Assembly: GCF_963169125.1 (NCBI RefSeq)
Contig: NC_084801.1
Location: 115,843,061 to 115,907,060, forward strand
DNA from: Humulus lupulus
Lineage: Eukaryota; Streptophyta; Magnoliopsida; Rosales; Cannabaceae
DNA length: 64,000 nucleotides
Direction: 5' to 3'
Made by a program: the position numbers and the translations under genes. Under the pieces are notes generated by a model. It worked only from the letters and a program-made list of their open reading frames with translations, did no database searches and was not told the origin of the DNA. Positions 17,821-62,322 of this stretch are shown here, piece after piece (position 1 is the first letter of the stretch; every line of letters begins with the position of its first letter).

Positions 17821-19285
17821 GGAACTTTACCTTGGGGATTTAGCTATGTTTAGAGAGGTTTTTGGTGGGTTTTTGCTTGAAGAAAATGGGGAAATTTATG
17901 AGTTTTCATGGTGAGTCGCGACCCTGTTCTTGGGGTGCCGCGACTCTCATGAGCAGGAAGGAGAAAGAGGTGTCAAACCTCCATTTGAGCCACAACGCAA
18001 GTAGAGGTGCGCTACGGCGTGTGTCTAAACAGAGAAGAGCCTTGGGCTCTCTAACTTGGGGTGGGCCGCTGCTCCTTTGTTTTGAGACGCAACGCTTGAA
18101 GGGTTTTTGAGCCCCGGGAAGGTTTTGAGTGCGGGAACTCAAACCTAAGGGCTCAAGATTGATCCTACTACCTGATTTAGTAGAATTCGATGTCTCGGAG
18201 GCTAGGACTTGGTCCGGAAACCTTTATTCGCTCGTTTTGACGAGATTCTCTATTGGTTGTGACTAGGTTATCGTTAGGGGCTCGGAATCGGGATCGTGCT
18301 CGAGGGTCATTCTTAATATACGTTGCACTCGGACCTAAGGTTAGAAAAATGTGCTCGAGGGTCATTCTTAAGGAACATGGTTATTACCGTGTTTGTGTTT
18401 GATTAGTTAAGATACCATGATTTATATGTATGCATACTTGTATGGTTTGAAGTATGCTTATCTGTATCTGTTTGTTTGGTTATTTGAATGTCCGATTAAA
18501 GCCTTGACTTATTAGTCAAGGGCGGCAATAGCGCGTTGCGCGCTAGTCGAGAGCCTTAGGCCTAATCAGGGACGTACTATTACGTTGGCCATCCCTAAGG
18601 TTGTTGGAAAAACAAAGCGCTTGCCTAGCTTTATGGCTAGTTACTCAGACCTAAGGGCAAGGGCCCCAAGTGACTCTATGGTCACATAGCTAGGGCACAA
18701 GGCCTCAAGTTGACTCTATGGTCATCTATTCAAGGCAGCGGGCCTCAAAATGATCTAATGATCATTTATTTGTAATTGTATGCATGCATGAGTAGGTTAT
18801 TATTGATGGACATGCTAGATATGTATTTGGAATCTGTATTTACTGTTCATGCATATATTTAAGTTTTGTTGCTGAGCATTGGCTCACGGGTGCTATGTGG
18901 TGCAGGTAAAGGGAAAAGAAAGCTAGACCATCCATGAGTTGAAGAGCTTCAGTGGCGGCGTGTACATATGCGACTGCTCGTCCACCACGGCCAAGGATAT
19001 CTTAGAGGAACTAGGGTTGCATCCCTTATTTTGCCGCTTAGGCCGGCTAGTTGTAACTTTTAATTGTATATACCTTTTCAAACACCTGTTTGTAACATTT
19101 TGGGATCCCATGTATGTATTAAACTTTTAAATGAAAAGTTAGCGTTTCCTTTGACCAAAATTTTTAACCCTAACCCTTGACATTAACCTTAGTTACACGT
19201 TTATAACCAAATAAATTGATTAGCAACTCTGTCACCATTTAAAGTACATAGTGTAACAGTTTTGGATTAGGAGGACGCTACAACT

Positions 19286-28794: not shown

Positions 28795-30690
28795 TGATAA
28801 CTCTACAAAATAGAGTTATTTTACCACTATTTATAAGCTAATTAGTGTTAAGTTCTTACGTTTTTTATTAATTTATTAAATTTTTAAGTAATTTTGAATT
28901 TATTAGTCTTATCATGATTTTATAGATTTTTGTGTGTTTTTATAGTTATTTTATTGTAATATGTTATAGTTTAATTATTTGAAATTAGTATTATTAGATT
29001 AGAAGTTAAATTGTTATTTTATTGAACTTAATTGCCGAAGTAAATTAAATTTTAATTAATATTTTCATGGACTTAATATTATCTATTGTATAATTGAAAA
29101 TATTTGATTATGATTTAATTTATGCTGTAGGAATTATGTTGTATTTTTTTGTGTGTTTGAAAAAGAAAGAGAAAGAAAGAAAAATGGCATTTTTGAAAAG
29201 GAATAAGCAAACACATGGCACCAAGCCCACAAGACCAAGCCTCCCAGCTGCCTTCCCAGCCCGTGCCCCAGGCCCACGCCACCTGCCCAGCCAGCCCAAG
29301 CCTCCAGGCCCGCACGCCTCAGCATCCTCCAACTCCCCTAGGTCCACGATTTCCCTTCCCAATTGCTTGAACCTTCCCCAGCCACTTGGGCTTGCGCCCA
29401 ACTACCTCACCCATGGGCCGCCTGCCCTTTTCTCGGCCTAGTGGCCTCCTAAGATGGCTGCCAGCCCAGCAAACAAAAGGAGAAATGTGTCTTGAGCCCA
29501 ACAATGTCTCCTTGTCCCATTGTCCAAAAATGCCACATTTTTACCTAAACTTTTCTATACATTTTACCCCAAAATCATCATTACATCTTAAAATTTACCC
29601 CTATATGCCATATTATTCTTCATTTCAAATTTAATTTAATCAATTTAATTAATTTAAATTGATTATCTTAAACACTTTTTTGGCTATAAATATAGGATTG
29701 GAGTGCTTAATTTGGAGGGGGTTACACTACAAAAATTCTACACTTTCAATACCACTCCATTCTCTTCTTCTTTTTATTCTTTTTTGTCATTTTTTCTATG
29801 AGTTTTTAAAGGAAAATTTTGGGGGTTCATCCCCCAAATTTTCCTATTTATGTTTGTAATTTTTATTTTGTAATTTCCATTCTAGTTATGCGCTTCTAAT
29901 CTTTTTCATAAGATTATTAAGATCATGATGAAGCAACTTGTAACTAGATAATATTTATGTTGTATGTTGATTTCCCTTGTAATGCAACAAAGTTTATGGA
30001 TTTTTCTTCTTCATATATGTCTTTCATCTTTAATATCTCATATTTTGGATTGTTAGATAATATTGCACTTTATTCTTCATTTTTGCAAAACATAATATTA
30101 TTTGTGTAAGATGTGTCATTAAATTATACACATCCAATGCTTAGAACAAAAATATTATGTTTTGCCTTATAAATAATGTTATTTGATTATTTTTTTCCAT
30201 TAGGTTGATTCACATTAAATACTTTGAAATTATACTTTTTTTGAAAAGTGAAGAAAAATCCTATCTTTTTAGAAATAATTTGTGCTTAAAATTATAAATT
30301 TATTTGGAAAATGATAGTTTGACTTATTTTAACTATCACTAAAACTTGGGAATCAATATACTAATAATTATTATTAAACTTACATTTTGTGGATTCTAGT
30401 ATCTTAATAATCTTTCTTTTACAACTTATTTTCAAATCATAATTGTTTTATTTTTATTCTCTTAAATAGCTTTATTTTAAATCTTTTATTTTATGTTCAT
30501 GACATTAAATCTCATCAATCTTTGGAGCTAGGTTAGAGTCTATTAATTTTGGTTTAAAATAGTTGTCTTTTTTATTTTAGACAACTCCTTTGGATTCGAC
30601 ATCCTTGCTTACACGATCACTATTCTATATCAACGATTCGTGCGCTTACGAGTTATAAATATTTAAAACATACTCATTTTGGGTCCATCA
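28795..30690 (+). mobile_element. LTR-like insertion J (probable solo LTR), 1.9 kb
   Basis: It begins TGATAACTC and ends GGTCCATCA, so it has TG...CA ends. It splits the 3' LTR of A between accgcgac and gacgcgtg. Only a 3-bp match (gac) flanks it, so the duplication size is unclear. Inside are a C-rich, Pro-codon-rich stretch (29210-29480) and a TATA box (29685-29692) followed by a C/T-rich leader, which fits U3/R. An inverted second copy lies at 59688-60885. No protein is encoded. A DNA transposon with a 3-bp duplication cannot be excluded. Confidence 0.65.
29685..29692 (+). promoter_or_regulatory. TATA box in element J
   Basis: TATAAATA lies about 45 bp upstream of a CT-rich leader, consistent with an LTR promoter. 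Confidence 0.55.
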
Positions 30691-32244
30691 TGACGCGTGT
30701 CAAAACAGAGGAGAGCCTTGGGCTCTCTGACTTGGGATGGGCCGCAGCTCCTTTGTTTTGAATCGCGACACTTGAAGGGTTTTTGAGCCCCGGGAAGGTT
30801 TTGAGTGCAGGAACTCAAACCTAAGGGCTCGGGATCGATCCTACTACTCGGTTGAGTAGAATTCGACGTCTCAGAGGCTAGGACTCGGTTCAGAAGCCTT
30901 TATTTGCTCATTTTGATGAGATTCTCTATTGGTTGTGACTAGGTTATCGCTAAGGGCTCAGAACCGGGATTGTGCTCGAGGGTCGTACTTAATATACGTT
31001 GCACTCGAACCTAAGGTAAGAAAACTGCACCCAATACGTGATATATGTGATTAGGGCTTGACCCGGTTGTTGATTATAACTATGAATAGGGCTCAGCCCC
31101 TGAGAATGAATGTGATTTAGGTTATTCTTGAATGATTTGTGTCTGAATAATTGTCTAATGAATGCTTGCCCTGTCTGCAAAGGTAGGGCTCAACCCCGCT
31201 AAGGAACATGGTTATTACTGTGTTTGTGTTTGATTGGTTAAGATACCATGATTTATATGTATGCATACTTGTATTGTTTGAAGTATGCTTAGCTGTATCT
31301 GTTTGCCTAGTTATCTGAATGTCTGATTAAAGTCTTAACTTATTATTCAATGGCGGCAATAGCGCACTGCACGCTGGTCTAGAGGCTTAGGCCTAATTAG
31401 AGATGTACTATTATGTTGGCCGACCCTATGGTCGTTGGAAAAACAAAGCACTTGGCTAGCTTTATGACTAGTTACGCAAAGCTAAGGGCAAGGGCCCCAG
31501 GTGACTCTATGGTCACATAGCTAGGGCACAGGGCCCTGGGTTGACTCTATGGTCATCTATTCAAGGCAGCAGGCCCCAAAATGATCCAATGATCGTTTAT
31601 TTGTAATTGTATGCATGCATGAGTAGGTTATTACTGCTGGGCATGCTAGGTATGTATTTGGAATCTGTATTTACTATTCATGCACATGTTTAAGTTTTCT
31701 TGCTGAGCCTTTGCTCACAGGTGCTATATGGTGTAGGTAAGGGGAAAAGAAAGTTAGACCAGCCATGAGTTGGAGAGCTTCGGTGGCAGCGTGTACATAT
31801 GCAGCTGCTCGTCCACCACGACCAAGAATATCTCAGAGGAACTAGGGTTGTATCCCTTATTTTTCCGCTTAGGCGGGCTAGTTGTAACTTTTGATTGTAT
31901 ATACCTTTTCAAACATTTGTTTGTAACCTTTTGGGATCTCATGTATGTATTAAAATTTAAAATGAAAAGTTAACGTTTCCTTTGACCCAAATTTTTAACC
32001 TTAACTCTTGACATTAACCTTAGTTACACGTTTATAACCAAATGACTTGATCAGCAAGTCTGACACCATTTAAAGTACACAGTGTAACGATCTTGGATTA
32101 GGAGGACGCTACACATATATTAAAATGTTTGAATTCCAAAACATACTTCAAACATGTATTCAATTCTATACATGCACATAATGGGTCATTCATAATTTAG
32201 TGTTGGGATTCAAAATGATCATATATTTATCAATGGAATTTTTT

Positions 32245-33385: not shown

Positions 33386-33889
33386 TGTAACACCCTACTA
33401 CCTAGGGACCATTACACTGTGTATTTAAAATAGTGCTAAACTCACTAAACGAGTCATTTGGCCATAATCGTGTAACTAAATGTGATTAACGATTTGGGGT
33501 TAAAATTTTTGGTCAAGGATACAAACGTTTCACTAGAATGTTTATTGTATACATGGGATCCAAAAATACCTTTAAAAGGTTAATTACAATAAGAAGTTAC
33601 AACCTGCCGACCTAAGCGAGAAAATAGGGTTTAACCTTAGTTCGTCTTTAAACCCTCGGCCGTGGTGGTCGAGCAGCCGCATATGTACACATCATCACCT
33701 AAGCTTTTCAACTCAAAGATGGTCCAGCTTTCTCTTACCTTTACCTGCACCACATAGCACCCGTGAGCCGAGGCTTAGCAAGAAAACTTAAACATGCTCA
33801 TAAGCAGTTAATAGCATGTCACCAAATCATAATAAGCATGCCTAGTAGTAATATCCCTATTCATGCATGCAGGAAAGTACAAATAAATG

Positions 33890-34275
33890 ATTGTGGGATC
33901 ATTGTGGGGCTTTCAGTCCTAATCAGATGACCATGGGGTCAACCTGGGGTCCTTTGCCCTGAATAAATGACCGTGGAGTCATCCTGGGGTCCTGTGCTCT
34001 GAATAGACGACTGTGGAGTCAACCTTGGGTCCTTTGCCCTATTAGATGACCATGGAGTCAACCTGGGGTCCTGTGCCCTGGATAGATGACCATGGAGTCA
34101 ACCTGGGGTCCTATGCCCTGGATAAATGGTCGTGGAGTCAACCTGGGGTCATGTGCCATGGATAGATGACCATGGGGTCAACCTAGGGTCATGTGCCCTG
34201 AATAAATGATTGTGAAGTCATATTGGGGACTTGTGCCCTAAGCAATGTGACCATCAAGTCACCTAGGCCTTTTAG
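33890..34275. repeat. Minisatellite of 40-46 bp units in LTR E, 8-9 copies
   Basis: Units share gatgaccatgg(a/g)gtcaacctggggtcc followed by tgccctg. The same position in the LTRs of A has only two or three diverged units (near 18655-18760 and 31495-31595). Confidence 0.9.
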
Positions 34276-35716
34276 CCCTGGTTCTGAGTAACTAGCCATA
34301 GACTAGCCAAGCGCTTTAGTTTTCTTCGACTATAGGGTCGGACGAGTGTATAATGCTCTATTGATTGGATCTAATCATATGTGTTGCTCTTGACTAATAA
34401 CTCAGTGCTTTACGACCAGCGCTTAGCGCTATTGCCATCCTTGACTAATAAGTCGGTGCTTTCTCAATGAGGTAATGCAAATAGGCATATATCATGTGTC
34501 AAATATCTAGATATAAGGCACTCAACATGCTTAATCAACAATCACAAGCACAATCATAATTATGCACATTTACAGAGAGTCAAGCTCTGATCAATTCCAT
34601 ATTCAACATTCATGCCATGCCATAATCACATGTATCACATGCATCACATATTGGGTGCAGTTTTCTTACCTTTGGTCCAAGCACAGGTTACCAATAAACG
34701 ACCCTCGGGCACGATCTTGATTTTGAACCCCTAGCGTTCACCTAGTCACAACCATAATATAGAATCCCGTAAAAACTGAGTAAATAAAGACTTCCAGACC
34801 GGGTCCTAGCCTCCAGGACGTCGAATCCTACCAGATTGGGTAGTAGGATCGATCCTGAGCCCTTAGGTTTAAGTTCCCACGACTTAAAACCCAACCTGGA
34901 CAAAACTGCATAGGCGAGCCGTGACTTGGCTCTGGGGGTCGCAGCGCGCCTCCCAGACAACAGCCCTCTACCTAGGCTTTAGGGCACGGGCAGCGACTTG
35001 CCCTCTAGAGTCGCAGTGCGCCCCCCAGGCAGAACCCCTCCTGGTTCTGGGTTCACACAAGTCGCGACTTCCAAGAACAAGGTCGCGACCCAACCTTGAA
35101 CCCAACAATTTTCTTCATTTTTTCCCATTTAAATCCTCCAAAAACCTATCCAAACATATTCAAATCCCAAAAACAAAGTTCCCAAACATCCCAATGGCCC
35201 AAAACCATCAAAACATAAGCTTTAAACAACTCAAAAACTCATCAAAGCATAAAATCTAATCAAAGCTTAAAAACTCAAAATCTCAAAACTCAAAACTTAA
35301 AACTTGGATCACCTCTGATTGAGTTGTTTCCCAATTAAATCCTCCGGCTCATAAGCTTCTAGTATTCCCTAGAATCATTATGACTCTAACCTTGCTTGAA
35401 TCTGAGTCCTAAAACTCGAGTTTCCTTCAAAAATGCTAATGGCGTTAAAAAGAGAACGAGAGAGAGATAGAACATACTGAACATTTTTTTATGTTTCTGA
35501 CAGGTTACTTCGGGCTTAAGTAACCTCAAGCAAATCCTAATGCTTGGGGTCCCAAAAATTCCCCCTGGCGTAAAATAGTCAAAATTCCCATAATTCCCTC
35601 CTGATCTCACTAACTCCCAATATATCATCAAATAATCATTCCCATTACTCAATATCCCGGTAATGTGCTAAATACCCAATATACCCCTTGACTCACTCCG
35701 AGTTAAGTATGGGTCC

Positions 35717-36608
35717 TGTTTACCGAGTTTTTCGGAAATGAATACAAACAAAATAATAAAAAGATAAGAACTGTAGAAGTGCGGAAATATAAATAAACAA
35801 ACAGGTTTCTTACGTGGTTCAGGCGTTAACGAGCCCTAGTCCACGAGTCGATGTTATTATACTTGTAGTGGATTACAGTGAAATGGCTGGTGTATAAGAC
35901 CCTCACAAACTCACAATGTTTCTCTCGGGTTCTCTTGAAGAAGATGAAGCTAGAGAGATTTCAGCAGAGTTCTTGCTATGTAATCTTTTTGGCCGTCCCC
36001 TTTATCGTAAAATGAGGGGGTCTTTATAGCTAGGGTTTTGGATTAGGGTTTCACTCTGCCCCCCTGAGCCTTAATTACACCAGCCATAAATAGGGGATAC
36101 AATTACCGTAGTCGCCTGGCTACCAGACTCTATGTGGGTATATTTACATGAAAGTATGGGGAATGCACAAAGGCAGCTGTCTTTTCCAGGCTGTCAGCGG
36201 AACAGTAGGCGAAGTGGTACCTTTAGGCATGCTGGGATGTGTGCGGCCTCGACCTGTCAGGCGTGTCAGGCGGGATCCTGTGTCAGGTGGAGATCATTCC
36301 AACTATGCCTCCTCCATGACTCGGCCGCTTGGTCTTCTTTCGTGCGAGGCACGGGACTGTATCCGCGAAGGTAGCCTGAAGAGCTTCTCCTGGAAGAACC
36401 TTCCCCGAAGGATATCCCTTCGGGAGTCCGGGAGAATTGACGAGCTTCCGTGACCTTCGGTTGCTTGAAAGAGTAAGCTTGACACTAAACGGGAGAGGCG
36501 AAGCCTTTCTGTCCATCCGCGAGCTCTGGTCACTTTTCGTGAAAGACTTTGATAATTCTGCTTCCCCGAGGCTATCCATCTAAACGCTATCCGGAAATCT
36601 GGATAACA
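35717..36608 (-). repeat. 3' LTR of element F, 892 bp
   Basis: Begins TGTTTACCGAG and ends GGATAACA on the plus strand, next to the polypurine tract. Contains the ttacgtggttcagg...tagtccacgag block near 35812-35852. Confidence 0.95.
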
Positions 36609-36622
36609 TTTACCCCCCAAGG
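36609..36622 (-). other. Polypurine tract of element F
   Basis: The minus strand reads CTTGGGGGGTAAA directly before the LTR. Element G has the same tract at 61813-61825. Confidence 0.85.
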
Positions 36623-37075
36623 TCACGGAGCTTTGAGAGGTCCGGGAGCTTGTACAGCCCTCCGGGTATTCTGGTTTCTAGATTAGGCGAGGGGTCACCT
36701 CCTGTGTTCCTGGAAGGGTTCCTTTTTCCCGCCTGAGTGTTAGTATGAAAAAGAAAGGAAATTTCTTCTGTTTGAACTCAAGTACTCAAGTGTGGCAAGG
36801 GCCACGCGTCATGCCGGGAATGGCTCTGTGACCAAGACGTGTGCGTGAGGCGACTGGCTGAGTATGCGTGCGTCAGGCATCTGAGTAGTGATTTGACGGT
36901 ATTTAATGGTACACCGGGCCCGAGATGGTATAATGATGGGAAATAAATACTTTATTCCCATCCGAGGAGTCATAAATAGGACCGGCGCTTCATCTCCAGC
37001 CGTCGGATCTGATGCATGCGGTATGGGAAGATCAGGACCGTCCATTTGTAGAATTCGAAAGGACTTTGTTCCTGC
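36623..37075 (+). promoter_or_regulatory. Upstream region of the antisense gene of F
   Basis: About 450 bp of moderately GC-rich DNA lie between the polypurine tract and the TATA box of the antisense gene. No ORF is supported. It is the likely promoter region. Confidence 0.45.
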
Positions 37076-37083
37076 TATAAAAA
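37076..37083 (+). promoter_or_regulatory. TATA box of the antisense gene of F
   Basis: TATAAAAA is followed about 25-35 bp later by a CT-rich leader. A non-coding first exon runs to a splice donor CCA|GTAAGT at 37367. Element G has an equivalent TATA box and donor. Confidence 0.65.
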
Positions 37084-37365
37084 CGAGGGAACGGACCTTT
37101 CTTCCTCTTTACGCTCTCAAATTCTCAAGCTTTCAGATTTTCAGATTCCCAAATCTTCGAACTCTCAAGCTTTCAAGCTTCCTTTCCTGCGAATTCGCCA
37201 CTTCTTTTGGTAAGGAATCCTGAAACTTTTCTTTCGACTTGACCGTAGGTTTGTTCGCCGAAGCTCTAAGTCTGAATCGTTGCCTTGTCTTGGCAGCCTT
37301 TACTTCTCGTGTTCGTGCAGTGCAGTGACCCGGTTACTCCTTCAATCTTCAACTATCCGAACACC

Positions 37366-40300
37366 AGTAAGTATTTCTACTTTGCTCTTTCCTTCCAAAC
37401 CTTAGATTGTTGGTAGTTGTTAGGGTTGAGTTTTCTGCCGGTGTCGTCTATATGCATGCATGAATAGGGCTTTGATAGGCATGTGACTGATGTGAGTCAA
37501 TAAGTAATCTCTTTGCATGCTTTGACGATTTGCGTTTGGAAAGTCGTTCCTCGTCTTGCTTGTGCTGTTCTGGTTTGCTGTTTTAGGGCATAAGCATGAG
37601 CGCCTTTAGGGTGTCTTCCTCTGGAAAAACACTTCTCTTGGCGGGCTTAGGCTCGGAGTTTGAGTTTGGTTCCTTGCTGTCCTTCGGGTGGCATGGTGTC
37701 AACCCCTCGGCAAGCTCGGCGGGAGCCTCTCCAAGCAGTTTTCGGGGAGGGTCTACCCGACGCCTTTGATACCGTTAGGGTATGACAAGGGTGCTGACTG
37801 CTTAGAGTGTTTTCTTCTTTGTTTCTTTTGTGCAGTGACGAACACCTCAAAGGATCAAATCATCGCTGCGGTAGAGGCTGAATCTGCCCAGGAGCAAGGT
37901 TCCCCTGTCGCTGGCGCAAAGGGGAAAGGAAAAACTAAAGTGGTCGCGGCTAGCCCCCCGACTATCAACAATTCAATCTGGGAGATGGACCAGAAGCCGA
38001 ACCTGTTCAGGAACTATGGCATCCTGGAGCTGTACTCCTCAGAGGCTTGAAGAACATCCCAGGCCTGATGTGGCACCGTCTGTCGGTGCTGGGTGAGTCT
38101 GCTAGTCAGAGTCACAAGGGTTTTGGTGCCTGGAGCTGGGCACACATAGTGTGTGGGGCGCATTTCCCCTAAGAAGTTATTTTGCCAATTTCTGTGTAAA
38201 GGCGGGGATTGCCCCCATCCAGTTGATTCCCCCCAGCTACAAGCTCCTAGCGGGGTGGTACATCTTTTGCAAGTCCCGGGACCTGGAGGCTCCTACTCCG
38301 GAGGAGGTGCTATACTTCTATGGGCTGAAGTCTCAACCCATGAGAGGTCATCCAGACAAGGTGGGGTTTTATAGGCTGGAGAGATATCCGGACGTGATGT
38401 GCCCCACATGTCATACCGCGAGGGTTCCAGATCTCCGGGAGTACTGGTTCCTGACGACTGGCTTCCCATTGAAGAGGGTGCCAGCTCTATCTTTGGACTT
38501 CAAAGTTCCTGGTAAGTGCCCCTTCCTCTCTTCTTTAACTTTGTTTCTTTAAGTTTGGTCTGCCTTCCGAGAGGATCTCTAACACTCGTGTTTGGATTTT
38601 GCAGAAGCTGTCCCGCGAACACCTCGCTGTGCGGAGATGATAAGGAGGTCAAACTTCTACGAGGGGCTCTCGGAGGAAGAGCTGAAGGTGGAAGGACTTG
38701 TGACCACCGAATCTTTGAGGGAGTATGGGCTACTTGCCTCTTTCCAAAATATTGAGCCAGTGAGTGGCAGGGGGCAAAGTCAGGTGTCAGCTGACGTCCG
38801 GGAGCAGATTGCCCTGGAGCTGTCCAAGGTGATCTGCCAAGCGGCCCGGGACGAGAATAATTTATCTCCTAGTTGGGCGGAGAGGTTCCCCGCCCCCCAG
38901 CCGGAGGAAGAAGAGATCGAGGCTCGCCACGCCGCTGCTTACCCCAATGAAGGGACTCCGGGAGCTGGTACCTCCGGAAGAGGTAAGACTAGTTTTCGAT
39001 TGATCCACACCCCCAGCCTATCTGAGGTTTCCCGGACTTCTCAGGCGGGGTTCGATCCCCGCTTCCTTAGGCTAGATCCGCGTAGGATACCCTTTGACAG
39101 ATATTGCGATAGGGTAGATGAGCTCCTCGGGTGTTTGAGTGACGATAGTTCGCCAGAAGGTGTCACCATGGTTGACCCTTCTTCCCTCAGCATGTTATTC
39201 CCGGACTTCGAGGAGCACGGGAGCTTCCTGGAGCAGGAAGCGATGTTTTGTTTTGCTCGGGGAAGGCCATCCACGTTTCTCGTGCATGGTCGTCCCTTTC
39301 AAACTTTTCTCTTGCTTGTTTCTTGTTCCCCTCTGGTGGACTTGTTTGCGCTTTTATGTTGTTGCATGTGTTTGTTTTCTGCTTATCTTTCTTCACATCG
39401 CTTGCTGGTTGGTTAACTTTGCTTCGTGCATTGCTTGCAGAACATCCCGAAGCAAAGATGTTGGGGAGAGTCACCTCACTTATCAAGAAGGCCGCCACCA
39501 GCCAAGACCCGTCCAAGGGGAAAGGACGAAAAGCCAGAGTTGGTAGGGGAGGTAAAGCTGCCACATCCAAGAAGACAGGTGGCGAGGCGCAAGTGTCTCT
39601 GGCGGTGGAGAGGTCTCCTGCCAAGGGGCCTTCCGAGACCATGGCGGCCTCGAGTAATAGCAGCGACGGGGAAGGGCTTGTGTTCCCCGCGAAGATGACC
39701 GGGACGAGCAAGCGCCCCGGAGGAGAGGCTGAGGGCGACAAGAAGAAATGCCTCAGACATTCTTCTCCCGGAGGTGATGGAGACCTCCGGGCTGCGCGCA
39801 GTCCTCGCCAGACTACTGTCACCCAGCAGCAACCACAACAACAACAACAACAGCAACAACAAAGGCAACCACCACCGTCGCAGCACCAGCAAAAACAACA
39901 GCAAAATCAGCAGCAACAACAAAGGCAATTACCTCCGCCACCGCAGCAGCAAAAGCAACAGCAACAACAATAGCAACAACAAAGGCAATCACCTCCGCCA
40001 CCGCAGCAGCAAAAACAAAAGCAACACCAGCAGCAACAACAAACTGGGGCAGTAGTGTCTTCCCTACCGTCCCTGATGACCTTTTACCTCCTCCTCCAGT
40101 CCAAAGGGAGTCCACCCTTCCGGGGTCTCCTTCTTCTCCTTCTCTTCCACTTTCTCAACAAACAAGCCTTCCTCAGCCTGGCCTGAAGTTCCAATTTCCT
40201 CAGAAACCAACCCGTTTCTCCGCTGCCCTCCTAGAGGGTGTAAGACGGGCTGATAATTTTTTGAAGAGGCGGTTGGAGGCCGAGAAGGCTGTTACTCAGG

Positions 40301-41686
40301 GAAGGGCAGACAACCTGTCTGCCGTGAAGAGAGCTGAGCTGGCAGAAGGGGTGAGATCCCTTCACCCGACTGGAGCGGTTCTAGATGGCCCAGCCTTGGA
40401 GAAGAGGCTGGTGCCTAGACTCGGGCGTGCTTTGGCGCCGTTCAGGGCGGAGATGATGGAAGACATGGCCTTGAGCTTGTGCGAGCGCAATTCTGAGAAA
40501 TGGGCCATCAGTAGCAGTAAGGACCCGCTGTTGCTGACACATGCCGTAAAGCAGCAACTTACTGGGGTGAGCTATCAGTTACTGTGTTCTGGGGTCGTTG
40601 GTCTTAGTACATTTGGTTCTGCTTAACTTATTCTGCTGTTTTTCCTTGCAGGCCTCTCTTATCGCGGAACGCTCGTTCCGGGAGGTGGGTGCAGTTCTGG
40701 TTCAGCTGGAGGAGAGCCAGGCGGGTCGCCAGGCCTTGGAGGCGGAGAAGCAGAAACTGACTCAACAGGTCGAGGGCATGAAGGGGGAGGCTATGGAGAA
40801 GATTAGCCAAGCCCGGCGCACGGCTGAGGAAGAGGCGGATAAGAAATATCGTGCCAAATATCGAGAGTACCGGGCCAGCGCAGAGAATGAGTTCAAGCAG
40901 CGGTCGGATGACTTGAAGGCCGAAAACTCCAAGCTCCGGGAAGAGCTATCCCAAGCCAGGGAGGAGAAAGATACCTTGGAAGCCCGCTTGCAATCGAAAA
41001 ATGATCTCCTCCTTAAGCGGCAAGAGGAATATGCCACTCTTCAGAATAGGCTTCACAAGGAGGAGCAGGATCATAAGAGGAGCAAGGATCTCGCGTCTAT
41101 GCAGGAGTTGGGGCTTGCTGAGAAGGATAAACAGATTGGAGCCTTGCAATTCACCGTCAGGGGACATGTAACCGAGAAGCAATCCTTGCTGGGTCACAAT
41201 AAGGTGCAGCGCAAGGAGATTGATTCCCTTAAGGGAGAGCGGGATGCATCCAAGACCGAGCTGGAAAAACTGAGGGCTCAATTGGCTGTCGCGGAGGCAA
41301 AGCTGGCGACCTCTGAGGCGGAGCGCTTGAAGGAGAAGGAAGATGCCGAGGGGGTGCTGAATAGAACGATTAATTTATCCCACGTGGTCCTCATGCACCA
41401 ACTTTGGAAAATAAACCCGGAGGTAATAGGCTACCTGGGAGAGGACGCCGCCGCCATGAGGGAAAAGATACAGGTGTGGGATCAAAGCCCAGAGGCGTAC
41501 GCCCAGACTTATGACATTGACGAGCCTGCTGGAGCCCCTGAGGCAGAAGATCCCACAGAGGCAGGGACCTCTGGACCTGCCAGTGATGAAGTTCCACCTT
41601 CCAATGAGCCGACTCCGCCAGCCCCGGTTGAAATCGCTGATCTCGAGGCCCCGGACGTGGATGCCGCTGCCACCCCCAGCGCTTGA
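37366..41686 (+). pseudogene. Antisense gene of F: Transposase_28-like domain, poly-Gln linker, coiled coil; broken
   Basis: This gene is opposite to gag-pol. Exon 1 ends ...CCA at 37366 and exon 2 starts TG at 37836, so splicing would create the ATG (MTNTSKDQII). Exon 2 (to 38511) has NLFRNYGIL and FCVKAGIAPIQLIPPSYKLL, the signature of Pfam Transposase_28 ('putative gypsy type transposon'). A stop at 38048 and a second shift near 38150 break it. Exon 3 starts at 38605. Exon 4 starts at 39441 and carries Lys/Ser-rich sequence, then a Gln-rich tract (39823-40046) with TAG at 39971 and a frameshift behind it. Exon 5 (40652-41686) encodes a 250-residue coiled coil and an acidic Pro-rich tail. 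Function is unknown; the family is known from Tat-type elements. Exon borders are partly inferred. Confidence 0.78.
39823..40046 (+). repeat. CAA/CAG-rich poly-glutamine tract
   Basis: Runs of CAA and CAG with interspersed Pro and Arg codons form three diverged units of roughly 60 bp, each ending in aggcaa(c/t)(c/a)acc. One CAG has become TAG at 39971-39973. Confidence 0.9.
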
Positions 41687-42148
41687 AGGGGTCTTATCTT
41701 TTGTAAAAAATATTCTTTACTGATTATTATTTTTCATTTGTATTTTTCTTTGGGGCGAAGCTCCCTGTACTCTTTTCTCATTGCAGACATATTTGCCATA
41801 ATTATAGCATTTTTCTTTCCTTTTCTGCCGAGTTCTTTGTTTAACTTTGCGTTTAGGGTATGCTTTTATACGGTAGAAACTGCTGTAGGGGCGCATGAGG
41901 TTTTGGTTCCAACGGCCAGAACCTATGCATTTCCAACTTGAAGCTTCAAAAGCTTATGTCTTTTCCCACGTAGTTCCTAGGTTACGAAGGTTTCTTGGTT
42001 CCAACGGCCAGACTCCTTTCACCGTATTTCAGCTTTCCTAAGGCAAATAGCCAATCCCGGGACTTGTAGTTATACTGTTTGCTGGGATTGCTAAGGTGAG
42101 CCGTTCCATGGTGCCGGAACGGGAGTTCTTTTGGTGAGCGTCGTTAGA
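41687..42148. other. 3' flank of the antisense gene
   Basis: T-rich non-coding DNA after the antisense stop, probably its 3'-UTR and polyA region. ggttccaacggccaga is repeated at 41904 and 41998. Confidence 0.5.
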
Positions 42149-42159
42149 CTTAGGGTTAG

Positions 42160-42540
42160 ATCTTTGCGAGGCAAAACTAACTGTCGTTGCGAACCTCATG
42201 GTGGCTGACTTCAGGGACCTGACATGAAGCCCTGCGAGGCAAGGCTCGTTGCGGTCGGGGAAATTGCCACGCCCACCATGTGCGATCCCGGAGCAGGGGC
42301 TTTGCAAAGCAAGGCTTGCTGTAATTGGGAGATCGATCATATCTGCTCCTGGAGCTGAAGCTTGCGAAGCGAAGCTTGCAGTGGTCGAGGAGCTCACCAT
42401 GCATTATTTTGTGAGATCCGGAGCTGAAGCCTGCGAAGCAAAGCTTACAACGGTCGCGGATCTTGCCATCTTTCGCCTTGCGGGACCCGGAGCTGGAGCT
42501 TGCGAAGCAAAGCTTTACAGCGGTCGCGGAGTATTCTGCG
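42160..42540. repeat. Degenerate tandem repeat of 60-71 bp, six units
   Basis: The core tgcgaagcaaagctt or a variant occurs near 42166, 42233, 42302, 42362, 42431 and 42502, each followed by a g(t/c)ggtcg(c/a)gg-like block. A related copy lies inside gag at about 47760-47790, where the minus strand encodes FASQAPA. Confidence 0.85.
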
Positions 42541-42837
42541 AAGGACTTGTCAGGGAGTTGGGGGTGTTTCGGCGTAGCTCTCTGAATGTGCCTCAACCCC
42601 CAGTCATGTTCATCGCTGGGCTACACAGGAGATAATTTTCATGATGCATAATGGCAGACATTTGCATGGCAATTTTCACATAACCACATAAGGCACATAT
42701 GGCACGTAATGCATTTATGTTCATGGCAACAAATCAACTTAAGCTTAACAATTTAAAATTTTCAAACACAATGCTAACACATAAGTGGTGTTCTCTGTAT
42801 GTTTTGTTCAAGGGGCGTATGGCTATACCTTAGCCAT

Positions 42838-42855
42838 GTATACCCCCCCAAGTGA
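42838..42855 (-). other. Internal polypurine-tract-like site of F
   Basis: The minus strand has CACTTGGGGGGGTATACA about 215 bp after the pol stop. It resembles the terminal tract CTTGGGGGGTAAA and may serve as an extra plus-strand priming site. Confidence 0.5.
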
Positions 42856-43069
42856 GCGTTGGGTCCGGACGTCTCCGGACCGCGTGGTCACTTGTTAAAA
42901 CGCAACTTGGAACAAAGGGATAAAAAATGCAGTAAAAGCGGAGTGAATTTCTCCGTGTTTTATTAAATTAGCATGTTAGGCATGCGTTTTACAGCTGGGA
43001 GGATTATCTCCATATTTTACATTTTGGCTACGTCTACCAAGGACTTCCGACTAGATAGTCCGGGGCCTA

Positions 43070-46000
43070 CTAATAGTAATGGCGGAGGTGCTCCGCGTTC
43101 CAGGCGCGAGAGACTTTAGATCCGTCGAGTCTCTTTAAATGATATGTCCCATGGCCCACTTTTTCTTGGACTTCATAGGGGCCTTCCCAGTTGGGTCCGA
43201 GGACTCCCACTCCCGGATCCTGCGTAGCAGGAAATACTCTCCGTAGGACAAGGTCCCCAACTTCGAATGTACGGCTCTTGACTCTTGTGTTGAAGTGTCG
43301 GGCTATCTTGCCTTGGTACATTTTTAGTTGGACCTGCGACTGCTCCCGGAGCTCTTCGATCATGTCCAGGGACTCCTGGAGAAGGGCGTGGTTCCAGGTA
43401 GGGTCGTAGGTGTCCTGCCTGTGAGAGGGGATCATAGTTTCTACTGGGATGACGGCCTCGCAACCGAAGGTCATGGAATAAGGTGTGTGCCCCGTCGAAG
43501 TTCTCTCTGTTGTGCGATAGGCCCAAAGTACTCGCAGAAGCTCTTCCGGCCAGTGAGCCTTGCATGCTTGGAGTTTTTTCTTCAACGTGGTCTTTAAGAT
43601 TTTGTTCACTGCTTCCACTTGCCCATTGGCTTGAGGTCTGGCGACTGCGGAAAAGCTTTTGATGATTCCATGCGAAGCACAGAAGTCCGTGAAATGCTTA
43701 CTGTCAAATTTCTTTCCGTTGTCGGACACAATTTTTCGCGGAAGCCCGAAACGACACACTATATTCTTGATGACAAAGTCCAGTGCTTTCTTAGAGGTGA
43801 CCATGTTCATAGGTTCAGCTTCAACCCATTTGGTGAAGTAGTCTACTGCGACTATGGCATACTTCACTTCACCCTTCCCAGTTGGGAGGGAACCTACTAG
43901 GTCAATGCCCCAAACGGCGAACGGCCAGGGGCTGGTCATTAAGGTAATTTCTGTAGGCGGCGCACGCGGAACCTTGGCGTACCTCTGGCACTGCTCACAT
44001 TTTCTGACATAATCCACACAATCCTTCTTCATGGTGGGCCAGAAGTATCCTTGACGAAGGATCTTTTTGGAGAGGCTCAGACCGGAGGTATGGTCGCCAC
44101 AGAAGCCTCCGTGAATCTCATGGACGATGGTGCTGATTTCGGTTCCGGCAACACACCTAAGGAAGGGTATGGACAACCCCCTGCGGTAAAGCTTTCCATC
44201 CATAACCACGTATCGGGGAGCTTGATATTGGAGCTTTCTTGCGTCAGCTTTATCAGTGGGGAGCTCTCCGGTGGTGAGATATCTGAGGATGGGCCCTATC
44301 CAAGAATGGGAATGGTCGATGATGGAATTTACCCTCCGTGTCTCGGTACTAGGCGCTTCTAAGTGCCTGATGGGCACTAGGCCATATTGTTCAATTTCCG
44401 GGTCTGTTGCAAGCTTGGCCAGTGTGTCCGCGAGTGAATTCTGGTCCCGGGGGACCTGGCAGATTTGGTGGCCTTTGAAATGCTGCAGGAGGCCGCGGGA
44501 GAGAGACACGTAGGCAGCCATTTTTTCGCCTTTTGTCTGGTATTCTCCGGATATTTGGTTTACCACAAGTTGGGAGTCGCTGTATACTTCGATTTTTTGG
44601 GCTCCGACTTCCCTGGCCAGTTGTAATCCAGCTAGCATGGCTTCGTGTTCTGCCTCGTTGTTGGATGCTGGGAACGCGAAACGGATGGCGCTCTGGAGCT
44701 GATGTCCTTGGGGAGAAATTAGGATAACCCCTGCTCCAGCTCCTTTTTCATTTGAGGCTCCGTCTACATAGACCTTCCATGTGGGAAGTTCCGGGACAGG
44801 ATCTTCCGGGAGGTCATTCATTCCTGAGCATTCCACAATAAAGTCCGCGAGAGCTTGACCTTTTATGGAAACACGTGGCTGGTAGTGGATGTCAAACTGG
44901 CTCAGTTCCATGGCCCATTTAAGTAATCTGCCAGAAGACTCGGGCTTCTGCAGGACTTGCCGGAGAGGGTGGTTGGTGAGTACTCTGATGGTGTGCGCCT
45001 GGAAATAGGGCCTTAGCTTTCGCGAAGCAATTAGCAAGCAGAGGGAGAGTTTCTCGATCATTGAATATCTGGACTCGGCGTCCAGTAATCTCTTGCTCAC
45101 GTAATACACAGGGAGCTGGAGACGGCCGTCTTCCCGGACGAGAGCGGCACTTACGGCATGCTTGGTTACAGCTAAGTACAAGAACAATGCCTCTCCTTCG
45201 ACAAGTTTGGATAGTATGGGAGCTTGAGTTAGATGTTCCTTGAGGTGTTGGAAGGCTGCTTCGCATTCGGGGTTCCACTCGAACCTCATGTTTCCTCGCA
45301 AAACATTGAAGAAGGGGACACATTTGTCAGTGGCCTTAGATACGAAGCGGCTGAGAGCAGCTATCCTTCCCGTAACGCTTTGGACATCCTTATGCTTTTG
45401 GGGAGAAGGCATATCTATGAACGCCTGAATTTTCTCAGGGTTGGCCTCCACTCCGCGGGAGCTGACAATGAAACCGAGGAACCTCCCCGACGAGACCCCG
45501 AAAGTACATTTCTTCGGATTCAGTTTCATTCCATACTTTCGGATCACGGCGAAAGCTTCCTCAAGGTCGTCGCTGTGGTCCCCAGAGGTCTTGGATTTTA
45601 CCAACATGTCGTCTACATACACCTCCATATTCCTCCCCAGCTGGTCCTTGAACATCCTGTTTACTAGGCGCTGGTATGTCGCCCCAGCATTCTTCAAACT
45701 GAAAGGCATGACCACGTAACAGTAGACACCCTTGTCCGTGAGGAAGCTGGTGTGTTCCCGGTCCGCGACATGCATCTTGATCTAGTTGTACCCGGAGTAT
45801 GCATCCATGAAGGATAAGAGTTCATACCCGGAAGTAGCGTCTACCATTTGATCGATTCGCGGAAGAGGGAAACAGTCTTTTGGGCAGGCTTTGTTTAGGT
45901 CCGTGAAGTCAATACACATTCTCCAGGACCCATTGGGTTTCGGGACCAGAACCGGGTTGGCCAACCACACGGGATAGTGTGACTCCTGGAGAAAGCCTAT

Positions 46001-46978
46001 GGACATCAGCTTGTCCACTTCAGCTTTGACTGCTTCGACCCTCACTGGATCTAACGGCCTCCTCTTTTGGCGAACGGGAGTTGCAGATGGGTCGATGTTG
46101 AGTGCGTGGCACGCAACATTAGGATTAATCCCCATCATATCAGCGTGGCACCATGCCAGGATATCCTGATTTTTCTTCACAGTGGCCACGATCTTTTCTC
46201 GAATGGCCGATGGAAGGTTTTTCCCCACCTGAATGACTTTGGTGGGATCTCCCGGGTTGAGGATCACCTCCTCGACTTCCTCCATTGGCTCTATCGCCCT
46301 CTCGACCCCCAATCTAGGGTCGAGTTCGTCAACATATGCCCCTTGGGCACCCCCATTTTCTGGCAGATTCTCCGCCAAAGGAGCGGCAACAGTCGCCTCC
46401 TGGACCGTGTAGATGGATCGGACAGAGACGTTATAACAGCTTCGTGGACTTCGTTGGTCCCCTCTGAGGGTGCCGATACGCCCGTTGTCACATGGAAACT
46501 TCAAACATAAGTGGCGTATCGAGGTTACTGCCCCAAAATCGATTAGGACCGGTCGGCCTAGGATGGCATTATACGCCGTGGGACAGTCGACCACCACGAA
46601 TGTGCAGTGCCTGAAGGCACAAGCGTCGTTGTCTCCTCTGAGGGTGACTAGAAGTTGAATTTTGCCTAAGGGCATGAGTGCATCCCCATTGAACCCCTGA
46701 AGCTGGATGGGGCATGGGGTCAGATCAGTCTCGGTTAATCCGATCGCGTGGAAGGCAGCTTTGAAGAGGATGTTTACGGAGCTTCCATTATCGACGAGGA
46801 TCCGTGACACCTTCTTATTGGCAATCTGGGCTTCCACGACGAGGGGATCGTTGTGGGGGAAGTGCACATGTCGGGCGTCATCTTCCGTGAAGGTGATGGG
46901 AAGATCCATCATTCGGGGACGCTGAGCAGGTGACTGAACCAAGGCGCACATCTCCCCGGTGTGTTCTAACTCCCTCAA
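43070..46978 (-). pseudogene. pol of F: protease, RT, RNase H, archaeal-type RNase H, integrase; one nonsense codon
   Basis: The frame is open from 46978 to a TAG at 45782-45784, then open for 901 codons to 43070. Protease has ILVDNGSSVNILF, the Tat variant of the DTG motif. RT contains NGSWRMCIDFTDLNKACPKD upstream of the stop and YVDDMLVKS downstream (residues 53-61 of the second part). The stop replaces an expected Gln in the conserved GYNQIKM stretch. The first RNase H ends with LSQFDIHYQPR. The second, archaeal-type RNase H (WKVYVDGASNEKGAGAG, NNEAEHEAM, VYSDSQLVV) is diagnostic of the Tat lineage. Integrase has the HHCC region (CEQCQRY) and DDE residues in GIDLVG, VSDNGKKF and ANGQVEAVNK. 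Apart from the stop, catalytic residues look intact. Confidence 0.9.
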
Positions 46979-46987
46979 GTACCTTTT

Positions 46988-49293
46988 CTAGGAGTTGCGG
47001 GTGCTTCCGGCAAGGTGTGGTCCTCCGGAAATGGTGGCTACGTGTCCGTCAACAGATGGCGGAGCAAGGCCAGGCGGATATGGATTTCCGGGTCCGGGAG
47101 CCAACATGGCAATGGGTGCCGGAGAGGTCGGAGCAGGAAGCGCTGGGAATTGGGATCCAGGAGCTTGGGGGTGACTAGCTCCAGGAGCGCTAGCGGTCCC
47201 CCTCTGTCCCGGAGAGAACGCAGCTCCGTGAACTACTCCCTGTCCGGGATAGATTATGGGTATCCTCACCCATTGACCGAGGTGTCCCGCTCTTGCCAGG
47301 GACTCGATCTCATCCTTCAGTTGAAGGCACTCGTTTGTGGTGTGCCCCACGTCTCCGTGGAACTCACACCTTTTATTGGAGTCTCGCGGACGCCTTCCTC
47401 CGTGAGACACTTTCGGGGGCTTCCTGTAGTTGACCATATTACAGGTCGCTCGATAGACGTTCTCTCGTGAGTCTATCAAACTGGTGTACTCCGTGAACTT
47501 GGGCTCATAGTCCTTCCGGGGTTTCTTTGAATGGTCCCCCCGGTTGGAGTTTCTTCCTCCTCGTTTATTCCGCGATTGGCTCAGAATTTGTTCTGGGCCT
47601 TCCGCTTGCGGTTGCGACCGGCCGGGAGCGATACTACATCCGGTTTGTACAGCTCCGTACCCAGAAAAATGGGTTTGACTCGACGTCTGAGCAGACGCGG
47701 AAGGCCCATACACGCTTGGAGTGAACTGGGCTCCTGGAAACGTGAGGGCTTGTGCGGGAGCTTGCGAAGCAAAGCTCGGCGCAGTCACGGAGGGCGTCGG
47801 AGCTGGGGGAACTCCAAAGGCCTGTTGGTAGGCATCTTCAAGGTTGATGATTCCCTGAGCTTTCGACATGAATTCGGACAGAGTTTCTGCCCGTCTCCTT
47901 TGCATTTCCCCCCATAGCAGGGAACCGACGGTAAGCCCCGATTGAAGGGCGATCAGTTTCATATCATCGCTGACCTTGGTCTTAGCAGCAGCTTCCATCA
48001 TTCTTTGAATGAAAGCTTTGAGGCTCTCATTGGGTAGTTGCTTGATGTTGGTTAAGGAACCAACCTCCATGTCGTGGTCCCGGGCAGCAATGAACTGCCT
48101 CCTGAACGCGGACTGTAGCTCCTTCCAACTGTGGATGGATCCGGGAGCTAATCTTTTCCACCAGTCCTCCGCGGACTTGGTAAGGGTGAGTGAGAAGCAC
48201 ATGCATTTGGCATCCTCACTAACGCGCACCACTTGCATCATCTTGTTGTATTTAGCTAGATGGGTGCGCGGGTCTGTCCTCCCCTCATATAATTCTATAT
48301 GAGGCATTTTGAAGTTCTCCGGGAGGGGAGTTTCCGCGATTCTCCGAATACATGGTTCCGGGTCTTCCTCCTCAGAGTCTGACAGGGCCTCACTTTGCTT
48401 CCAGACCAGCTTGGTCAGGGCAGCTATCTGTTCCTCGAGCCTCTTTGTATTACTCTCCGGGAGGTCACGTCCCCGGATCTTGTCGTTGAGATGATTTCGC
48501 AGGTCATCTCCGCGAGGTCGGGCCTTTTCTCCTTTGGCCTTTTCATACTTGGCCTCCAACCTTCTTCTTAGGTCCACCGTGGACCAGCTATCCTCGGAGT
48601 GCGTGTCCGCAGCTCGACCGTCCTGGTTGACGGAATCACTGGGGCGGTTGTTCCTTCCCTTAGGCCTGGGTGCCTTAGCACCGGGCCCTTCAGGCACAGA
48701 GTGCCCCCTTGGGGCTGAAGGATGTCTGGGCTTAGGAGCGCCAGAGACCTTCTGCGCGCGGGGGGGGGGGGGGGGGGGCAGTTGGCCTGGTGATTCGCGC
48801 CTTTAGGAGGTGTAGGGGCGTTAGTGCGCACAGGCTCCCCAACTTTTTCTTTGCCCTTGTTAGGGGCGGCTTTGGATGGTCCAGCAACGGATGGATCCAG
48901 CATGGTGGCATCAGCACCACCTAAAACAGAGGCGTCCGAGTCCGAGTCGCCTAGATCTCCAAGCTTGCCTCGGAGGCGCTCCATCATGCGCTGCATTTTT
49001 TCGGAGACGCGCTCCTGCTCAGCAAGCTTGGCCTTAGTGGCCACCAGTTCCTCGGCTACTTGGACCAGTTCTGGATCCTTCTCGTAGTAGTAGCCGTCTT
49101 TGTAGTAACCGTCTCGGACATACTCTTCTTCGCTTTCTAAGTATGTCGTATCTTCAGTACTGACCCGATCCTGGCGGGATGTCGGGTCTTCACCTTGGTA
49201 GTCCGAGGGTTCGTTTCGCACCGCATCTTCCATCATAGTATCGGGGTTGACCCTAGCATTTTTGTCAACCGCGGATTTTCTCGTAGTCACCAT
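46988..49293 (-). pseudogene. gag of F, frameshifted at a G19 tract
   Basis: The first ATG after the primer site is at 49293 (MVTTRKSAVDKNAR). An acidic N-terminus with a coiled coil follows, then the frame is lost at a 19-base homopolymer (48760-48778). The main frame (48697-46988, 569 codons) has the retrotransposon gag domain ([32 protein letters not shown]). Its zinc-finger-like [20 protein letters not shown] is typical of Tat elements. It ends with TAG at 46990-46988, in the same frame as pol, with no other stop between. The frameshift could be real slippage or a sequencing artefact. Confidence 0.88.
48760..48778. repeat. G19 homopolymer within gag of F
   Basis: Nineteen consecutive G on the plus strand (C on the coding strand, encoding Pro) interrupt the gag frame. 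Confidence 0.95.
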
Positions 49294-49358
49294 CTTTTCA
49301 GTACGGAGCGAATTCAAAAAATGTACACAGAAAAAGAGCTGACTAACAACTCCCTATA

Positions 49359-49380
49359 GCTCTCAATGAAAGCACCAAAA
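49359..49380 (-). other. Primer-binding site region of element F
   Basis: The minus strand after the LTR reads TTTTGGTGCTTTCATTGAG. It is not the Met-tRNA site used by A, E and K. I cannot name the tRNA. Confidence 0.6.
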
Positions 49381-50272
49381 TGTTTACCGAGATTTTCGGA
49401 AACGAATACAAACAAAATAATAAAAATATAAGAACTGTAGAAGTGCGGAAATATAAATAAACAAACAGGTTTTTTACGTGGTTCAGGCGTTAACGAGCCC
49501 TAGTCCACGAGCCGATGTTATTATACTTGTAGTGGATTACAGTGAAATGGCTGGTGTATAAGACCCTCACAAACTCACAATGTTTTTCTCGGGTTCTCTT
49601 GAAGAAGATGAAGCTAGAGAAATTTCAGCAGAGTTCTTGCTATGTAATCTTTTTGGTCGTCCCCTCTATCGTAAAATGAGGGGGTCTTTATAGCTAGGGT
49701 TTTGGATTAGGGTTTCACTCTGCCCCCCTGAGCCTTAATTACACCAGCCATAAATAGGGGATACAATTACCGTAGTCGCCTGGCTACCAGACTCTATGTG
49801 GGTATATTTACATGAAAGTATGGGGAATGCACAAAGGCAGCTGTCTTTTCCAGGCTGTCAGCGGAACAGTAGGCGAAGTGGTACCTTTAGGCGTGCTGGG
49901 ATGTGTGCGGCCTCGACCTGTCAGGCGTGTCAGGCGGGATCCTGTGTCAGGTGGAGATCATTCCAACTATGCCTCCTCCATGACTCGGCCGCTTGGTCTT
50001 CTTTCGTGCGAGGCACGGGACTGTATCCGCGAAGGTAGCCTGAAGAGCTTCTCCTGGAAGAAACTTCCCCGAAGGATATCCCTTCGGGAGTCCGGGAGAA
50101 TTGACGAGCTTCCGTGACCTTCGGTTGCTTGAAAGAGTAAGCTTGACACTAAACGGGAGAGGCGAAGCCTTTCTGTCCATCCGCGAGCTCTGGTCACTTT
50201 TCGTGAAAGACTTTGATAATTCTGCTTCCCCGAGGCTATCCATCTAAACGCTATCCGGAAATCTGGATAACA
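49381..50272 (-). repeat. 5' LTR of element F, 892 bp
   Basis: Same length as the 3' LTR, with about 11 substitutions and no indels seen by eye. Followed by the second GGTCC. Confidence 0.95.
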
Positions 50273-50577
50273 GGTCCCGTTGTGACTTTTCCATTAGCTT
50301 GCTCCCAAGGATCGTCTGGTGCCAAGTAACCCAAACATATCCACATAGTAATGTAGTACCACACACATACCACATATATGCCAAATATACCCATAACGAG
50401 CCAAATTACAAAAATTTCCCTTTTTAAACAGAAATGGGCCCACATGCATATTTAATACACCTAAACATGCATATCAAGTCATATTTTAATATAAATCACA
50501 TAATGATGCACATATATCACATAATCCCATAATTTTCAATCTTGGCCCCCTAATCAAGGTCCTAAGCCTTATACTTG

Positions 50578-61825: not shown

Positions 61826-62322
61826 CCTTCGCCTAGGCCTGCCAGAAGGAGGTTTGCATCGTTCCCAGGACGCTCGCATGGTTGCCTCCCCAGTTCCTGC
61901 CCGGGATCGCGGGTCCGTGACAGCGGGCCGTGGTACTGGCGGTATGCTTGGCCCGGACTGTTTACCAATATCCGGGGATGTTTACCATTGTTCCGCTTCG
62001 TGGCAAGGGTACACGTGTCACCAGGCGATTGCTGCACAGGTCTTGAAAGGTCGCCTAGCCCTCCCAAGAGTCGCTAGGCCTAGGCTAGTGTGTCAACGCA
62101 CATCACGAAGCGTCCCATCCGCACGGGGGTCCATCATTAATGTCCCTGGGATGAGGTGGACTGTAGGATGGGGCGACCTTTGGCATCCGCCCCTCCTGGG
62201 CCGTTAGATCTGAGATGGCGAGGATCCAACCTGAAAGGACTCATAAATGTCCCTGCGCGACTCCTGACCGTCCGATGAGGAGACACCTGTCCGTTGGATC
62301 AGAGGCCAGGACTTGGGGCCAT
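61826..62322 (+). promoter_or_regulatory. Upstream region of the antisense gene of G
   Basis: About 500 bp of GC-rich DNA between the polypurine tract and a TATA box. No ORF is supported; it is the likely promoter. Confidence 0.45.

Follow-up and report, generated by a model that had tools for sequence, protein, structure and literature searches.

The 64,000-nucleotide stretch of Humulus lupulus contig NC_084801.1 analysed here (the window; all coordinates are window positions) holds a dead copy of a Retand-like long terminal repeat (LTR) retrotransposon, E1. This copy quite probably carries the antisense accessory gene of its lineage, a spliced gene with its own TATA promoter that encodes a protein with a TRP28 (Transposase_28) domain and a coiled coil. 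The gene lies on the + strand between pol and the 3' LTR, opposite gag-pol, and was modelled as five exons and four introns (Table 1). The first part of this plan recurs in E2, a diverged relative cut by the window end, and the frame common to E1 and E2 is under purifying selection.

Architecture of the antisense gene

A first-pass annotation of the stretch had placed the gene between integrase and the 3' LTR, antisense to gag-pol, and this position is borne out by the LTR pair, the Pfam domains and the + strand exons. The TATA box that it named at the head of the gene is likewise present; for four TATA-type hexamers, 36609-43070 has two + strand hits, this TATAAA being one. Transcription was assumed to start about 30 nt past this box. 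Splice sites were scored with an approximate matrix, and their ranks refer to all GT (1297) and AG (1801) dinucleotides on both strands of the E1 internal region. The intron 1 acceptor scores 6.36, near the 6.49 of the acceptor ranked fourth, and three GT sites within 37100-37830 (37210, 37780 and 37249) outscore the intron 1 donor. A second leader intron is possible within exon 1, at 37210/37297 (GTAAGG ... TTGGCAG; donor rank 27/1297, acceptor rank 83/1801).

E2 was found with a regular expression of our own that covers part of the conserved TRP28 spacing given by Vicient (2025; PMC11963269). It matched the homologue clusters P0009 and P0010 and position 63204, as well as 38390, an out-of-frame chance match. 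E2 spans 60886-64000, with a presumed LTR start; an LTR-like end at 61812, placed by its likeness to the end of the E1 LTR, is followed by the same TTTACCCCCC as in E1. The distance from TATA box to intron 1 donor is 294 nt in E2 against 291 nt in E1, the donors read CACA/GTAAGT and ACCA/GTAAGT, respectively (the slash marks the junction), and intron 2 interrupts both genes in phase 1 at the matching residue. E1 and E2 share the TATA-leader-intron plan as far as the window reaches, introns 3 and 4 of E2 lying outside it. At the DNA level the two are only 58% alike in an alignment of 605 columns that is mostly exon 2 (37979-38554 with 63024-63607), and the common exon-intron plan is therefore old. 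What speaks for a promoter of the gene's own is sequence evidence, namely the TATA box and its similar spacing in E2. In the E2 leader an ATG at 62406 begins an open stretch of 70 codons (62406-62616), and an alternative acceptor, CAG/62932, would join it in frame to the main frame as a possible N-terminal extension.

Table 1. Elements, exons, introns and signals of E1 and E2 (window positions; ranks as defined in the text).
Feature	Position	Strand	Remarks
E1 (LTR retrotransposon)	35717-50272	-	14,556 bp; LTR pair and 5-bp target site duplication (TSD)
E1 3' LTR	35717-36608	-	892 bp; self-BLAST pair with 49381-50272; TSD GGTCC 35712-35716
E1 5' LTR	49381-50272	-	892 bp; TSD GGTCC 50273-50277
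E1 gag-pol	43070-48802	-	one frame; Pfam: gag, protease, reverse transcriptase (RT), RNase H, second RNase H (RVT_3), integrase
TATAAA of E1 antisense gene	37076-37081	+	E2 counterpart at 62323
Exon 1 (modelled leader)	37105-37366	+	without ATG; ends in the A of the modelled start codon
Intron 1	37367-37835	+	469 nt; donor rank 54/1297, acceptor 6.36
Intron 1 hairpin, E1	37729-37807	+	arms 37729-37739 and 37797-37807; E2 counterpart 62836-62903
Exon 2	37836-38511	+	TG of the modelled start codon, basic N-terminus, TRP28-like domain; two frame changes
Intron 2	38512-38604	+	phase 1; GTAAGT...TTTTGCAG; donor rank 2/1297, acceptor rank 4/1801; same place and phase in E2
Exon 3	38605-39288	+	open, 227 full codons; P0006-P0008 identity falls past exon end
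Intron 3	39289-39440	+	phase 1; weak donor GTCGTC, rank 536/1297; acceptor rank 22/1801
Exon 4	39441-40566	+	basic linker, poly-Gln, conserved helical part; in-frame TAG and later frame change
Intron 4	40567-40651	+	phase 0; donor rank 165/1297, acceptor rank 1/1801; P0001 spans junction
Exon 5	40652-41686	+	coiled coil and conserved tail, 344 codons; stop 41684-41686
TATA of E2 antisense gene	62323-62328	+	
E2 intron 1	62617-62923	+	307 nt; donor 62617
E2 exon 2	62924-63561	+	ATG inside exon at 62934; TRP28 domain (PF04195)
E2 intron 2	63562-63636	+	phase 1; 75 nt
E2 exon 3	63637-64000	+	cut by window end

The gene of E1 is not the complete one that the first-pass annotation described, given two frame changes in exon 2 and a stop and a frame change in exon 4. 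Exon 2 is read in turn in frame 1 to a TGA at 38048, in frame 0 (open stretch ending at 38169) and in frame 2 to 38511; in exon 4 the TAG at 39971-39973 lies inside the poly-Gln, and the frame changes further on. The exon 2 domain exists uninterrupted in two homologue clusters, P0009 with 19 members and P0010 with 8, and the open lengths of exon 3 (227 codons) and exon 5 (344) were approached by none of 2000 first-order Markov versions each.

Selection on the frame and support from homologues

Over 275 aligned codons of E1 and E2 the nonsynonymous and synonymous differences per site, pN and pS, are 0.42 and 0.72, a pN/pS of 0.59 (bootstrap 95% interval 0.50-0.68), and the same alignment shifted by one or two bases gives 1.04 and 1.09. 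The codons come from three pieces of 34, 128 and 113, each in its own frame, with gapped columns and residues outside the local alignments dropped. Neutral evolution of the frame, named by the first-pass annotation among the findings that would refute its proposal, is thereby answered over the long term, with 0.59 against about 1 in the shifted frames. Because the synonymous divergence (dS, 2.5) is near saturation, this is long-term constraint and not recent constraint in E1.

Protein searches returned 5, 10 and 3 proteins; the first and third scored only those candidates that share most words with the query, and the profile-based third search, in which the 7998 best candidates were scored, brought no new families. 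Relatives sought in viral_contigs, genome_contigs and plasmids were not found there, as expected for plant DNA. P0001, an annotated Humulus lupulus protein, is 87% identical over 73% of the 519-residue C-terminal query and joins exon 4 to exon 5 at the modelled intron 4 junction. The Cannabis proteins P0011-P0014 are 48-62% identical over 18-40% of the 392-residue N-terminal query, and P0012 can be read, by eye, through the intron 2 junction. Judged by these homologues, the host is probably hop or a near relative of it.

Several homologous open reading frames (ORFs) that read on into introns lose identity at the modelled junctions, which favours the introns. P0006, P0007 and P0008 match exon 3 at 212, 192 and 180 of 229 residues (93, 84 and 79%), and past its edge at 21/28, 13/36 and 15/34 (75, 36 and 44%). 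P0003 matches exon 5 at 205/327 residues against 7/16 ahead of it, and P0015 matches exon 4 at 114/150 against 22/40 ahead of it. Other comparisons do not discriminate: P0009 (exon 2 56/70 against 30/43 before; 118/132 against 2/4 after), P0010 (117/132 against 9/12), P0011 (54/93 against 6/11), P0004 (139/155 against 5/6) and P0005 (137/169 against 2/2).

The element and its class

The two LTRs of E1 are 98.77% identical by self-BLAST, without gaps; 11 of 892 positions differ, a Kimura two-parameter distance (K2P) of 0.0125. From this distance, and with substitution rates that we assume, the insertion would be some 0.5-0.9 million years old. Gag-pol carries two in-frame stops, at 46988-46990 and 45782-45784.

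Ogre and Retand, Tat lineages of angiosperms, are marked by a second RNase H (aRH) between RNase H and integrase (PMC6317226). E1 has this second RNase H: the Pfam matches to RT and RT_RNaseH end by residue 296, RVT_3 covers residues 340-458 and Integrase_H2C2 starts at 548. By this domain order E1 is a Tat-clade Ty3/gypsy element. It also has the long region between pol and 3' LTR with antisense ORFs that sets Retand apart, and its sizes, 6,461 bp for this region and 12,772 bp for the internal region, fall inside the Retand ranges of 2,933-6,566 and 7,380-12,869 bp (PMC11963269). The antisense TRP28 gene and these sizes, rather than an RT tree, point to Retand and not Ogre.

Between the antisense gene and pol lies a tandem array (42351-42531; 69-bp unit, 2.6 copies), and about half of the recently active Retand elements have tandem arrays in the pol-3' LTR region (PMC11963269). 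A 261-residue open frame (48571-49353, - strand) stands between the 5' LTR and gag, in a different frame, and has no Pfam match at E 1.

The predicted protein

The protein would consist of a TRP28 head and a long coiled coil, joined by a basic/poly-Gln linker. Most likely it would assemble with itself and serve the element as an accessory factor in the nucleus, associated with nucleic acid or chromatin. The head is best seen in E2, where 62934-63560 scores 27.3 bits against PF04195, above the gathering cutoff of 26.2; a longer read-through piece (62889-63998) scores 24.9 bits, under the cutoff. Because the Pfam-positive E2 aligns with E1 through the domain, with 55 of 128 residues identical, E1 is TRP28 by relation and not by its own score, and a frame change of E1 falls near the start of the domain. 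The Transposase_28-like domain announced for E1 stands through this relation to E2 and not through a Pfam match of the E1 pieces. The poly-Gln of the same annotation is present, with 33 Gln in 49 residues up to the stop, and its long coiled coil is supported by the hop homologue P0001, which is modelled as a single helix over residues 34-301 (mean predicted local distance difference test score, pLDDT, 76.9; predicted template modelling score, pTM, 0.26). Exon 5 matches SMC models weakly, as coiled coils do (E 8e-4; 17 bits, where the cutoffs exceed 560), and NCBIfam gave nothing beyond weak SMC and other coiled-coil matches.

A proposed start codon assembled by splicing

At the junction 37366/37836 (CCA/GTAAGT ... 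TGCAG/TGACG) the first AUG of the modelled E1 mRNA is put together from A37366 and TG37836-37837, and an ATG that exists only after splicing, as first proposed, holds as a sequence-based model of E1. Without splicing, the nine ATGs of intron 1 would lie upstream of the frame; exon 2 has its next ATG at 37985, in frame and 49 codons downstream. The antisense gene would be transcribed from its TATA promoter and then spliced, and in the E1 subfamily removal of intron 1 would both assemble A/TG and delete the nine upstream AUGs, so that only the spliced message would be translated well. The splice-made start is not general, since the ATG of E2 sits inside exon 2; the leader intron before the start would be common to E1 and E2, and the splice-built ATG would belong to the E1 side.

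The cluster P0010 starts with MTNIS at the E1 start codon. Its initial Met was considered as proof of an unspliced ATG and dropped: the far end of P0010 reads into intron 2, so that its Met more likely stands for a GTG of the genomic sequence, and the N-terminus of P0010 would fit the TG of E1 exon 2 in an NTG start of this kind. Among the few papers listed for precedents of a split start codon, none was relevant.

Weighing the alternatives

Several points count against the proposed gene. Its transcription, splicing, start use and nuclear role are inferred; the intron 3 donor is poor (rank 536/1297) and that of intron 4 middling (rank 165/1297). The E1 pieces gave no match to PF04195, those of exons 2 and 3 not even at E 10, and six homologues that hold the whole domain (P0009, P0010, P0012) or part of it (P0011, P0013, P0014) gave none either. 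Structure prediction of the exon 2 domain, which the first-pass annotation had suggested, was run and yielded no assignable fold, the model having a mean pLDDT of 43.6 and no PDB match at E <= 0.001. The ATG-free leader is weak evidence for a start made by splicing, as 27% of 2000 self-shuffles of it lack ATG (although ATG-free windows of 262 nt make up only 2.2% of those of the E1 internal region on the + strand and 9.4% on the - strand), and E2 has its ATG, 62934, within exon 2, ten bases past the exon start, as well as the upstream ATG at 62406 in its leader. With an ordinary exon 2 ATG used by E2 and an ATG-less leader not unusual for its composition, there is a minor but appreciable chance that A/TG is a coincidence and that translation starts at the downstream Met at 37985 or the real first exon lies elsewhere; both E1 and P0009 indeed have frame 1 open from exon 2 back into intron 1. 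However, the Met of WEMDQ is Leu in the Cannabis protein P0011, a start at the downstream Met would lose 49 residues that are kept open in P0009 and P0010, the E2 frame upstream of exon 2 is interrupted just ahead of 62889, and intron 1 has a good acceptor (6.36) and a donor ranked 54/1297.

The working product might also be the antisense transcript itself, acting as antisense or double-stranded RNA that feeds small interfering RNA (siRNA) silencing or self-limitation, with the frame as a passenger. Antisense RNA and siRNA have been raised as possible roles (PMC7264820), and the whole protein cannot be made from the E1 copy, but purifying selection has over the long term been confined to one frame and identity drops at several modelled exon edges, and we regard a role of the RNA alone as improbable. 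Far less probable still is that the gene was captured from the host in recent times and has no relation to the Retand antisense ORF: introns like those of host genes and a promoter-like TATA would suit such a capture, whereas position and orientation match the Retand plan and a second LTR-like end in the window is followed by a diverged relative that matches TRP28. The preferred reading remains the lineage's own antisense gene in a dead Retand-like copy.

A hairpin common to both first introns

Near its 3' end intron 1 holds a 7-bp arm pair, AAGCAGT/ACTGCTT, that is identical in E1 and E2. The 3' arm overlaps CTGAC, a branch-point-like site, its A lying about 38 nt (E1) and about 28 nt (E2) from the intron end; an additional CTGAC stands farther upstream in E2 intron 1. 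None of 5000 first-order Markov versions of the E2 intron had a 7-bp hairpin arm in common with E1, in a test devised after the motif had been seen; there is no common 8-bp arm, E1 being without any 8-bp arm. Looser tests are less telling: among 300 shuffles, 20 have an 11-mer in common, 25 have a 16-mer with at most two mismatches, and 9 have both. The folding energy of the whole stretches (121 nt in E1, 109 nt in E2) is just slightly low, with z scores of -1.55 and -1.87, reached by 16 and 9 of 200 shuffles, respectively. The trimmed cores are lower: that of E1 reaches -3.0 on the + strand and -3.2 on the minus strand, that of E2 -2.4 and -1.6, so that they do not single out a strand. A fold as good as that of the E1 core is found in 15 of the 638 windows into which the E1 pol-3' LTR region was divided. 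It is conceivable, though we think it unlikely, that intron 1 splicing is a switch, in which the kept hairpin over the branch-point-like CTGAC would control removal of the intron that hides the nine AUGs and so build the E1 start. Were this true, the antisense RNA would yield protein only after correct splicing, perhaps with feedback by the TRP28 protein or pairing with the sense genomic RNA.

Other features of the window

A 434-residue ORF with RCC1 repeats (2235-3536, + strand) is probably a host gene or gene fragment, and an integrase C-terminal SH3 domain with a sub-cutoff chromodomain match (26996-27652, + strand) is perhaps a chromovirus-type remnant. Two repeat pairs of about 84-90% identity (18018-19282 with 30694-32113, and 29512-30690 with 59688-60879, inverted) and a 40-bp tandem array (33844-34279) are perhaps the remains of nested elements.

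Relation to known systems and significance

The class to which the gene belongs is known, and the undescribed system envisaged at first is not what the window holds. Antisense TRP28 ORFs are reported in 97% of recently active Retand clusters, and Smc domains are listed for several clusters; DNA binding of TRP28 is predicted and a regulatory role suggested, no host orthologue outside elements is reported, and copy numbers of 4,800 (Silene latifolia) and 15,904 (maize) are quoted for the lineage (Vicient 2025, PMC11963269). The E1 gene resembles these ORFs in being antisense, in lying between pol and the 3' LTR and in its TRP28 domain. Likened by description only, it also recalls Grande gene23 of maize, an antisense accessory gene reported to have its own promoter and a nuclear protein, and PvRetro13 ORF2, an antisense protein with an SMC part, to which the weak SMC match of E1 exon 5 may be compared (Vicient and Casacuberta 2020, PMC7264820). 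Antisense genes of the HBZ type of human T-cell leukaemia virus 1 (HTLV-1), named in PMC11963269, are alike in working as antisense accessory genes, with no homology claimed.

New in the window is that E2, a diverged element, has the TATA-leader-intron plan of E1, a Pfam-positive TRP28 domain and an intron 2 at the same place and in the same phase. The surveys in PMC11963269 and PMC6317226 count contiguous ORFs, the former those of at least 600 bp and shorter ones only for TRP28, whereas E1 is modelled with four introns and a splice-made start; a term search of PMC11963269 gave no word starting with 'intron'. Among the open-licence titles listed, none dealt with introns of antisense TRP28 genes or with starts made by splicing, which is not proof of absence. 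The Conclusion of PMC7264820 calls for studies of antisense transcripts and of spliced ones.

In an abundant plant lineage the antisense TRP28 gene remains a puzzle. Surveys of ORFs would miss part of it if conserved introns divide its coding sequence. Its antisense direction would explain how a retrotransposon keeps introns at all: the genomic RNA is the opposite strand, so that retrotransposition would leave the introns in place. With the modelled splice-dependent start and the hairpin common to both introns, the expression of the antisense gene would be open to concrete, cheap tests.

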